From: a virus
Direction: 5' to 3' (one strand)
DNA: 29,649 nt
Virus record (IMG/VR): IMGVR_UViG_3300006315_000129
Coordinates: 1-29,649 of that record
Shown: positions 12,800-14,155 of the stretch, one piece after another
How the letters are laid out: each line of letters opens with the position of its first letter
Numbering within the stretch: the stretch's first letter is position 1
Program-made: the position numbers and the translations under genes
The notes under the pieces: generated by a model
Seen by the model: the letters and a program-made list of their open reading frames with translations, nothing else
Database searches by the model: none
What the model was told of the DNA's origin: nothing

Positions 12800-13089
12800 T
12801 AAAACAAAAAACAAAAGACGTTATAAAAATCTTGGAAGATAATAAACTTACTAATATATATTCACCTGAAGACCAAATAAAAATGCAATTAAATAAAAAG
12901 GTTGAAACATTAGAATCTCAAAAAGAAGAATTAGCACTTGGTATGAAAGAGTCTAGACACCAGGAATATGTTAGAAAAGAAATGGACAAAATTAGAGCTG
13001 AAGGTTGGCAAGAGAATAGTGTATCTGATACACACAAAATTATTAAAGAAGCGGAGAGGAGGGTAAAAGAACGTGGCGATAACAGTTGA
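12796..13089 (+). CDS. small coiled-coil protein of unknown function
   Basis: About 97 residues, highly charged, with heptad-like helices throughout (for example LNKKVETLESQKEEL). An in-frame TTG exists at 12787, but the ATG at 12796 forms an ATGA overlap with the preceding stop and is preferred. No catalytic motif is visible. Its last bases contain the ribosome binding site of the bS21 gene, and the two genes overlap by 17 bases, so expression is linked to bS21. Confidence 0.6.
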   Translation: MIKQKTKDVIKILEDNKLTNIYSPEDQIKMQLNKKVETLESQKEELALGMKESRHQEYVRKEMDKIRAEGWQENSVSDTHKIIKEAERRVKERGDNS

Positions 13090-13276
13090 AGTAAGACACG
13101 GTAATGTAGAGAAAGCTATGAGAGTACTTAAAAAGAAAGTACTTAAAGCTGGTATATTAAAAGAATATAGATTAAAACAATACTACAGAAAACCATCTGA
13201 AATTAAAAGAGAAAAGAAAAAAGAAGGTATAAAGAATTACAAAAAGCAACAGAAATTAAGAGAATCAAGGATGTAA
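13073..13276 (+). CDS. rpsU: ribosomal protein bS21
   Basis: A 67-residue basic protein matching bacterial bS21: VEVRHGNVEKAMRVLKKKV, then KEYRLKQYYRKPSEIKREKK. Bacterial bS21 is about 70 residues, so it is complete. It begins with GTG, preceded by a very strong GAGAGGAGGG site at about 13053-13062. bS21 sits on the 30S platform near the anti-Shine-Dalgarno end of 16S rRNA. Phage-encoded bS21 is known, including in a pelagiphage, and is proposed to replace host bS21 and bias initiation to phage mRNAs. Here it comes just before a structured RNA candidate and in the same genome as a RimK-type ribosomal-protein modifier. Confidence 0.93.
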   Translation: MAITVEVRHGNVEKAMRVLKKKVLKAGILKEYRLKQYYRKPSEIKREKKKEGIKNYKKQQKLRESRM

Positions 13277-13280
13277 AGAT

Positions 13281-13623
13281 TTCCAACGCCTGTGCTTTGA
13301 TAACATAAATATATTATACCAGGCAATTCATAAGTCCTGGGGCGTGGAAGGTAGCCAGTCCTACATATTTTAAATATGAAAACTGGTAGTAGTTTGAGGT
13401 CTACTATAACAAAACCTCATTGAATTTAGTTATTCAGGAGCGGTAGCCTTAACCTGATGTGTTTGTTTAGCATTTGCGCTTCGTTCAACACCCCAAAAAG
13501 AACTAAAGTAGCAGACTATTTTTGGTAGTTTTGAAGTCTATAACTCAAAAAACTACCATAACTACTTGTAATTTGGAAAATAGTACTTATATAAGTAGTA
13601 GTGAGTTGCCATTAAGGGACTCA
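13281..13623 (+). ncRNA. candidate structured RNA with two pseudoknots
   Basis: Between bS21 and Hsp20 there are about 386 bases with no credible protein gene. Helices I can pair by eye nearly tile it: 13281-13290 with 13341-13349 (9 pairs, one bulge), enclosing 13319-13323 with 13336-13340; 13355-13359 with 13382-13386 around 13364-13370 with 13372-13378; an H-type pseudoknot at 13387-13419; 13434-13438 with 13453-13457; 13459-13463 with 13487-13491; a second pseudoknot-like unit at 13513-13558 with a 10-base stem; 13561-13567 with 13593-13599; and 13602-13606 with 13619-13623. The motif GGTAGCC occurs twice (13350, 13442). It could be a free-standing RNA or a long leader of the Hsp20 gene. 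No clear promoter starts it, so processing from the bS21 transcript is possible. No known family is recognised. Confidence 0.55.
13584..13597. repeat. perfect 14-base palindrome
   Basis: TACTTATATAAGTA is self-complementary. It competes with the longer pairing of 13561-13567 with 13593-13599, so it may be an alternative fold of the RNA or a DNA operator upstream of the Hsp20 gene. Confidence 0.4.
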
Positions 13624-13629
13624 TATAAT
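13601..13629 (+). promoter_or_regulatory. weak promoter candidate for Hsp20 gene
   Basis: TATAAT at 13624-13629 is a perfect -10. The -35 position 17 bases upstream is GTGAGT, matching TTGACA only at its TGA. It would start Hsp20 transcription downstream of the structured RNA. A very strong AAGGAGG site at about 13651 lies 5-6 bases before the Hsp20 ATG. Confidence 0.3.
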
Positions 13630-13662
13630 AAACGATAACTTTGCTTAATAAAGGAGGTTAAT

Positions 13663-14112
13663 ATGACCAATAAAGCATTATCTATTTTTAACAGATTAAG
13701 ACCAGTATCAGTAGGATTTGATTCTATCTTTGACCATTTCGGTTCAATGTGGGATGACGATTTTATTAATGATATACAACCGTCTTATCCACCATACAAT
13801 ATAGTTAAGTCTGGTAAGAACACTTACGATATTGAAGTTGCATTAGCAGGATTCAATAAAAAAGACATTAACGTTGAGGTTGAGAACGGTATGCTTACCA
13901 TTGAAACTAAAAAAGAAGATAAAGAATCTTCTAAAAAGGAAGATGGTGAAGTAATACATAAAGGTATATCTAAAAGATACTTCAAAAGGTCTTTCACAAT
14001 CGCTAATGATGTAAAAGTCAAAGGTGCAGAATTGAAAGATGGTCTTTTAAAAGTTTCTATGGAGAAGATTGTTCCAGAAGAAATGAAGTTAAAAACAATA
14101 GACGTTAAGTAA
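13663..14112 (+). CDS. hsp20: small heat shock protein, Hsp20 family
   Basis: A 149-residue protein with an alpha-crystallin domain at about 45-140. It has YDIEVALAGFNKKDINVEVENG, the conserved GISKRYFKRSF strand, and the A-x-L-x-x-G-x-L signature (AELKDGLLKVSM). The C-terminal TIDVK supplies an I-x-V motif used for oligomer assembly. Hsp20 is an ATP-independent holdase and is common in T4-like marine phages, where it may help capsid folding or protect proteins during infection. The gene has the strongest ribosome binding site in the window and is followed closely by an intrinsic terminator, making it the end of a transcription unit. Confidence 0.95.
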   Translation: MTNKALSIFNRLRPVSVGFDSIFDHFGSMWDDDFINDIQPSYPPYNIVKSGKNTYDIEVALAGFNKKDINVEVENGMLTIETKKEDKESSKKEDGEVIHKGISKRYFKRSFTIANDVKVKGAELKDGLLKVSMEKIVPEEMKLKTIDVK

Positions 14113-14122
14113 TAACGTATAG

Positions 14123-14155
14123 ATAGTGGCGGGGAAACTCGCCGCTATTTTTTTT
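14123..14155 (+). terminator. intrinsic terminator after Hsp20
   Basis: ATAGTGGCG (14123-14131) pairs with CGCCGCTAT (14140-14148), nine pairs including one G-T, across an 8-base loop containing GGAAAC. Eight Ts follow at 14148-14155. This is the clearest rho-independent terminator in the window. Confidence 0.85.

Follow-up and report, generated by a model that had tools for sequence, protein, structure and literature searches.

A candidate structured RNA with a conserved hairpin and H-type pseudoknots between the bS21 and Hsp20 genes of a virus record and its relatives

The window, meaning the whole stretch of DNA that was analysed (29,649 nucleotides, IMG/VR record IMGVR_UViG_3300006315_000129), is probably a fragment of a T4-like phage of the Kyanoviridae, as judged from its genes and nearest relatives. 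The genes on its + strand follow the order CobS-like AAA protein, small ORFs, bS21, Hsp20, Redoxin-family protein, gp45 clamp and gp44 clamp loader. Between the bS21 and Hsp20 genes lies a gap of 386 bases (13277-13662), the largest among 34 hand-picked ORFs of the window (the runner-up has 325), so that the unusual size of this gap in a packed genome, remarked on in a preliminary description of the DNA, is borne out. A strong terminator-like hairpin with a T-run is present at 14121-14150, directly 3' of hsp20. The features of the locus are as follows.

13073-13276, + strand: bS21 gene (Pfam PF01165, 55.2 bits), adjoining the gap upstream
13281-13290 with 13341-13349, + strand: P1 closing stem, 9 pairs with one bulged A
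13305-13311, + strand: ATAAATA box in the P1 loop, candidate T4-type late promoter
13319-13340, + strand: P2, candidate recognition hairpin with the core GG-C-[NNYUCRUAA]-G-W(bulge)-CC
13354-13387, + strand: H2, hairpin GCCAGT/ACTGGT that contains an inner AT-rich stem; helices 3-4 show compensatory changes
13386-13419, + strand: PK1, H-type pseudoknot GUAG-UUU-GAGGU-CUAC-..AACAAA-ACCUC
13434-13457, + strand: H3, hairpin UCAGG/CCUGA with a 14-nt loop; similar hairpins seen by eye in other groups
13459-13508, + strand: possible PK2, GUGUU/AACAC with UUUAG/CUAAA (weak score, -12.8)
13513-13558, + strand: PK3, last H-type pseudoknot, stems AGACU/AGUCU and UGGUAGUUUU/AAAACUACCA
13565-13595, + strand: second promoter-like stretch, CTTGTA...TATATAAG, preceding the Hsp20 leader
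13603-13622, + strand: hairpin B, first of the Hsp20 leader, GAGTTGCCATTAAGGGACTC; equivalent seen by eye in relatives, including cyanophages
13637-13659, + strand: ROSE-like hairpin pairing the Hsp20 Shine-Dalgarno (SD) sequence, AACUUUGCUU / AAGGAGGUU, with a bulged G
13663-14112, + strand: Hsp20 gene (Pfam PF00011, 62.5 bits)

Sequence comparison indicates that the gap encodes a sense-strand structured RNA at about 13281-13558, which in the window runs in the order P1, P2, H2, PK1, H3, possible PK2 and PK3 (278 nt from P1 to PK3). An unannotated structured RNA between bS21 and Hsp20 had been proposed in the preliminary description, and relatives, covariation and the lack of a significant Rfam match confirm it; the span then given (13281-13623) holds as far as about 13558, and 13559-13623 instead consists of promoter-like sequence followed by the first part of the Hsp20 leader. 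No Rfam family reached its gathering score in the window, where the only matches at E ≤ 5 lay far below that score, and at E ≤ 1 there was no match to the RNA in five relatives; the Rfam search suggested earlier for this locus has thereby been run, with no significant match for the main RNA. A tRNA or tmRNA was ruled out, as ARAGORN found none in the window and Rfam gave no tmRNA match. In two of five relatives scanned, tRNA genes lie near the bS21/Hsp20 locus (L162:2210-2280 and L116:1286-1356).

Relatives of the RNA were found in many IMG/VR contigs, in the Pelagibacter phages Mosig and HTVC008M and in the Methylophilales phage Melnitz. Scans of IMG/VR with the Hsp20 query (best 80 of 167 relatives) and the bS21 query (best 80 of 165), together with the Mosig and HTVC008M regions, gave 91 distinct bS21-to-Hsp20 gaps of 211 to 1785 nt, 11 of them above 1 kb. 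The set of sites was enlarged by two pattern scans of the viral collection, for which counts are those among the matches listed: at least 140 distinct P2 motif sites occur in 366 loci, 128 of them near bS21 or Hsp20. Of the 128, the sites in L236 and L282 match by chance and fall within the upstream AAA gene. The other 12 of the 140 have no preceding TATA-type box, 11 of them also having no extended stem. In the GenBank entry for Mosig (MT647606.1), two hypothetical coding sequences, Mosig_00014 and Mosig_00015, are annotated inside the RNA (L161:1599-1847) and look like false genes.

Covariation was measured on alignment A3, which comprises 23 hand-picked rows of 26 loci prepared (L203, L213 and L289 were omitted), comes from two alignable groups of partly close relatives, and covers P1, P2, H2 and PK1. 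In A3, 89.7% of cells are paired compared with 81.7% after shuffling, and 12 pairs and 48 cells are changed on both sides compared with 6.3 and 12.7 in shuffles; none of 500 shuffles reached either the pair count or the cell count. The covariation value is 0.270 against 0.135 in shuffles, and slid versions of the structure gave at most 13 cells changed on both sides. The number of further pair types in A3 was not above shuffles (144 of 500). The covariation in homologues whose absence the preliminary description had named as grounds for giving up the proposal was thus found, with compensatory changes well above both shuffled and slid controls.

That the structure arose by chance in AT-rich sequence and forms no functional RNA is a reading that we regard as refuted. 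It could draw on single-sequence folding, which is weak evidence and gave a z of only -2.00 on the + strand (-4.76 on the - strand), but covariation is present, the 91 gaps share a conserved motif, and relatives keep stems and pseudoknots whose sequences have changed. The strand is indicated by the P1 helices of at least 8 pairs, which can be formed in 43 of 50 loci when G-U is allowed, in 22 of 50 when A-C is allowed (the minus-strand case) and in 19 of 50 with Watson-Crick pairs only; since G-U pairing does better than A-C pairing, the RNA appears to be read on the + strand, even though the - strand folds better alone. Purely DNA-level inverted repeats were rejected as an explanation, as pseudoknots and G-U-dependent stems make sense only in RNA.

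The comparison among relatives shows a predicted architecture in which a closed 5' domain (P1 around P2) is followed by H-type pseudoknots of one design, the last of which often stops a short way upstream of a further promoter-like box. The 9-pair closing stem stacked on a CCAGG/CCTGG hairpin, read from the window earlier, is present and kept in relatives. The MAFFT alignment A1, with 60 of 67 candidate rows, did not place the 5' strand of P1 correctly, and A1 was therefore not used in testing this stem. A contiguous helix of at least 8 bp was found in 38 of 50 non-redundant loci, compared with 9.3 expected from dinucleotide shuffling, and there are 44 distinct helices. When the P1 partners were swapped between loci, the mean went from -15.3 for own partners to -12.5 for swapped ones and -11.3 for shuffled ones, with 8 of 50 loci below 5%; this contrast is weak, partly because related loci share the stem. 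Among the 23 sequences of A3, P1 varies on one side only.

P2 has a near-invariant core, and its pattern, GG[CU]NN[CU][UC]C[AG]UAA[AG][AU]CC, occurs in its strict form in 83 of the 91 bS21-Hsp20 gaps. In the remaining eight, P2 variants can be recognised by eye: in five a stem G-C pair is replaced by A-U, and in three the loop differs at one position. Each of the six records searched whole has a single exact copy of the motif, and in A3 three of the six stem pairs are changed on both sides. The inner C-G pair is replaced by U-A in L107, L020 and HTVC008M; at 72 sites in protein-fetched loci it is C-G in 71 and U-A in one and is never mismatched, which supports the bulged W. In loci of the HTVC008M type the YUCGUAAR-type loop recurs on a second hairpin.

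Downstream of this domain, the two-part hairpin placed at 13355-13386 and the pseudoknot placed at 13387-13419 in the preliminary description are both present, as H2 (13354-13387) and PK1 (13386-13419), and both are kept in relatives. Helices 3-4 of H2 are paired in only 67-71% of the cells of A3. Stem 2 of PK1 is 100% paired in the 23 sequences, with four of its five pairs changed on both sides. In long forms of the RNA, the stretch corresponding to PK1 has a pseudoknot scoring -16 or lower in 19 of 19 loci (2.98 expected), and a U-loop pseudoknot at the PK1 place is the best-scoring one in 16 of 19 (0.42 expected); in the others, L107, L135 and L147, the best-scoring fold of the stretch differs from the U-loop form.

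The best pseudoknot of the window is PK3, with a score of -24.8. The "10-pair stem" previously assigned to 13523-13558 does exist as a helix, but as stem 2 of this pseudoknot rather than a stem of its own. The common design has a U-rich L1 and an A-rich L3, with one to three H-type pseudoknots per RNA. Of 64 non-redundant leaders, 58 contain such a pseudoknot scoring -19 or lower, against 4.37 expected, and six do not; one of the 64 rows, L236, begins at the chance motif site in the upstream gene, its true leader being included, and in 14 of the 64 more than 2 of 100 shuffles scored as well as the real pseudoknot. UU falls within the last three L1 bases in 48 leaders compared with 0.51 in shuffles, for which the rule was similar, not identical. 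In 49 of the 58, as with PK3, the end of the best pseudoknot and the Hsp20 start are 57-127 nt apart, and 44 of these have UU at the end of L1; in the other nine it lies further upstream and is not the last one. At or near the last-pseudoknot place, a near-identical hairpin, TTCACTAGGGAACTGGTAGGGATCC..AGCCTAGTGAA, is present in L060, L108, L126, L136, L138 and L146, and its recurrence in different groups looks like that of an exchangeable module.

The series of H-type pseudoknots resembles ToxI, a type III antitoxin whose units are pseudoknots. Unlike at ToxI loci, no toxin gene was found alongside and there are no near-identical tandem pseudoknot repeats, and identity as a type III antitoxin was rejected for these reasons. 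A broader version, in which the pseudoknot chain is a decoy that imitates a host RNA such as a type III antitoxin and neutralises a host nuclease, seems to us very improbable. Excerpts of published work provide precedents, as type III antitoxins are RNA repeats that bind an endoribonuclease (PMC8860590) and a phage can escape such a system through RNA mimicry (PMC3475682); the pseudoknots within one RNA, however, differ in sequence, the sole repeat being an AAAAGAA run outside the RNA, their stems drift freely, and none of five neighbouring proteins is a toxin (one has two weak matches to a reverse-transcriptase model).

By eye, groups of loci differ in pseudoknot number and in inserted domains. 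The short forms of pelagiphages consist of P1, P2 and a single pseudoknot, and the long ones (Mosig, L116) reach about 360 nt. Class D comprises 20 contigs with no detected upstream bS21; its RNA is about 65 nt, and a few bases separate P2 from the end of a preceding sigma70-like promoter. The upstream neighbour may be bS21, an ORF of about 90-130 aa or, in L223, an AAA gene. This variation bears on the possibility that the RNA is a 3' structure of upstream (bS21) transcripts, which protects or ends them before the next promoter. Such a function would fit the 99 of 138 sites (among the matches listed) at which the RNA comes directly after bS21, with the bS21 start within 320 nt upstream, and the TATA-type box found 1-2 nt past the pseudoknot in 9 of 58 leaders. 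It is nevertheless unlikely in our judgement, given that P2 sits at a promoter in class D, that an ORF lies between bS21 and the RNA in loci of the HTVC008M type, and that no terminator-like site is listed in the gap.

Promoter-like boxes accompany the RNA. An ATAAATA or ATATATA-type box starts 14-20 nt 5' of the P2 core at 120 of the 128 sites near bS21 or Hsp20 (among the matches listed). The window has six ATAAATA boxes on the + strand and none on the - strand, where an order-2 model expects 12.9 and 16.0, respectively. The strand bias and the near-constant position are suggestive of a T4-type late promoter, with a TATAAATA-like box, at 13305-13311. T4 late promoters are given as TATAAAT in the consulted part of PMC9004378, and in that of PMC7029224 the late promoters of pelagimyophages are said to have escaped identification. 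The absence of ATAAATA from the - strand and its shortfall on the + strand look as if the box were avoided outside promoters.

At the second promoter-like stretch (13565-13595), relatives have TTGAAA-n-TATATAAATA by eye. A sigma70 consensus scan gave no site in the gap and a count around it of 9, compared with 9.8 by chance. A TATA-type box after the pseudoknot was not found in 15 of the 58 leaders. For class D, counted here as 21 loci with L047, which is of another type, TTGA[CA]-N15-19-TA is matched in 13, and 16 have no TATA-type box after the pseudoknot. As class D mostly has no such box, its RNA appears to be co-transcribed with hsp20, as would suit a plain hsp20 leader. In class D (e.g. 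L278 and L223) and in loci with an extra gene (e.g. L147), the -35 to -10 stretch is an inverted repeat, for example GGGGGTTGT...ACAATCCCC, and these repeats sit before P2 or before hsp20.

The Hsp20 leader itself contains a second element. In the hairpin at 13637-13659 the SD pairs with UUUGCUU, and the hallmark U(U/C)GCU is present in 75 of 75 aligned phage hsp20 leaders (alignment A2), cyanophages included. Ten more phages were selected before their leaders were inspected (nine from a spread listing, plus AG-345-P14); the hallmark is present in 8 of them, and S-B68 and Pseudomonas phage Deifobo are the two without it. The pattern YYGCTT..AGGAG is found in the last 45 nt of 71 of 76 hsp20 leaders (64 contigs and 12 named phage entries, HTVC008M being counted twice) compared with 0 of 448 starts of other ORFs that have GGAG; the hsp20 leaders without the pattern are those of L174, L211, L222, L261 and HTVC103P. 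A MotA middle-promoter box, given as TGCTTtA in the part of PMC9004378 consulted, was rejected for TTGCTTAA before Hsp20, as this sequence has a fixed place relative to the SD, reads TCGCTT in cyanophages and pairs with the SD.

The layout of two hairpins with the SD in the 3'-proximal one was seen both in the sequence and in the predicted fold of the window at 20 C, and among the predicted folds of ten printed leaders some, not all, contain the SD hairpin. Predicted mean SD exposure at 20 C is 0.21 for hsp20 leaders compared with 0.48 for 150 sampled controls. In the window the predicted opening of the SD rises slowly, being 0.057 at 20 C and 0.136 at 37 C, and given this slow climb thermosensing is offered as a hypothesis. 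The Melnitz leader matched Rfam ROSE_3 (RF02523) with 34.1 bits and E = 8e-4, below the gathering score of 43; no ROSE match was found in the window (E ≤ 5) or in the other five loci scanned alongside Melnitz. The leader at 13603-13659 shares with ROSE-like thermometers the two hairpins, the U(U/C)GCU-SD pairing, the bulged G and the small heat-shock gene, and the excerpt of PMC3669281 describes two hairpins in the same U(U/C)GCU layout for the Pseudomonas ibpA type. It differs from ROSE and ROSE-like elements in being phage-borne and below the Rfam gathering score, and the likeness concerns only the neighbour of the main RNA. We consider the 13637-13659 hairpin a candidate RNA temperature sensor, by sequence, and a probable translational regulator for Hsp20. 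ROSE-like SD hairpins precede hsp20 in cyanophages, pelagiphage podoviruses and Melnitz (leaders L367-L386), a candidate for a general phage thermometer.

The presence of this hairpin next to the RNA raises the question of how far the RNA belongs to hsp20. A translation-related or cis-regulatory role had been suggested from its placement; a likely regulator does lie next door, in the ROSE-like hairpin beyond the span first described, but the RNA itself also occurs without hsp20. Among the matches listed, 132 of 138 sites, including two chance sites, have hsp20 no more than 2.5 kb downstream. No hsp20 was found within 919-2531 bases downstream in L191, L251, L254 and L264, where it could lie elsewhere in the genome; the next ORF there has 94-98 aa and is followed, where the contig extends, by what appears by eye to be a clamp-like ORF. 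Three of these four loci have a pseudoknot of -25.3, near-identical among them, and the finder missed that of L264. The two other sites without hsp20, in L113 and L178, are both at contig ends. That the RNA occurs where no hsp20 follows makes a purely cis role for Hsp20 doubtful.

A wholly cis-acting account would make the element solely a long 5' leader of hsp20, in which P2 and the pseudoknots tune mRNA stability or translation together with the ROSE-like hairpin, as a multi-domain thermometer or riboswitch-like element. We hold this to be a real possibility, if not a probable one. The proximity of hsp20 agrees with it, as do the 20 class D loci, in which the promoter, pseudoknot, hairpin B, SD hairpin and ATG are packed within about 120-160 nt of P2, and a pseudoknot scoring -17 or lower in all 21 class D loci including L047. 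Against it stand, besides the four loci without hsp20, an additional gene, of 323-394 aa, that separates the RNA from hsp20 in the 8 gaps examined of the 11 above 1 kb among the 91 (L110, L119, L121, L134, L138, L147, L149 and L161, the last being Mosig), the promoter-like box between the RNA and hairpin B in many pelagiphage loci, and the cyanophage hsp20 leaders examined, in which P2 was not seen and only the SD hairpin and a preceding short hairpin are present. The inserted genes are several different ones, and that of Mosig has no Pfam match.

The reading that we favour, at about even confidence, is that of a stable, semi-independent small RNA that would present a conserved recognition hairpin, acting in trans or from the hsp20 leader. 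Consistent with this, the module keeps its form beside different upstream and downstream genes, and the element preceding P2 is a sigma70-like promoter in class D and an ATAAATA or ATATATA box in the other loci. Against it, a transcript begun at the ATAAATA box would lack the 5' strand of P1. In the proposed mechanism, transcription would start late in infection at the ATAAATA box inside the P1 loop, or would reach the RNA by read-through from bS21. The pseudoknots, probably stabilised by triplexes, would cap the RNA and shield it from nuclease attack. A factor of the phage or the host, either a protein or an RNA, would read the near-invariant loop of P2, which HTVC008M-type phages have in duplicate; the partner that binds P2, the triplexes and the protection from nucleases are all pure conjecture. 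Where a phage has no promoter between the last pseudoknot and hsp20, the module would form the 5' end of the hsp20 mRNA, and separately the ROSE-like SD hairpin at 13637-13659 would gate Hsp20 translation. More tentatively, and with somewhat greater doubt than belief, the RNA could define a new class of free-standing phage RNA that acts in trans during infection and combines a duplicable recognition hairpin with an expandable chain of triplex-stabilised H pseudoknots at one locus of pelagiphages and methylophages, whatever the flanking genes.

Among known RNAs, GOLLD and ROOL are likewise unannotated structured RNAs of phage genomes with hairpins and pseudoknots; they are larger than the RNA here, which differs from them in having no Rfam match, a smaller size and a variable chain of one pseudoknot design. 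In T4-like phages, leader pseudoknots and hairpins are protein targets, as with the gene 32 leader pseudoknot and the gene 43 hairpin. The present RNA differs from these T4-family mRNA operators in its genes and layout. Neither the main RNA nor the phage hsp20 ROSE-like hairpin was found described in the portions of open-access literature searched, and the consulted parts of PMC7029224 and PMC9004378 mention neither element. As far as these searches go, the main RNA is so far undescribed.

Pelagibacter and the phages that infect it rank among the sea's most abundant organisms, and RNA regulation in these phages is little known. The cultured representatives HTVC008M, Mosig and Melnitz make the conserved RNA directly testable, and its modular pseudoknot chain is a natural series for studies of RNA triplex stability.
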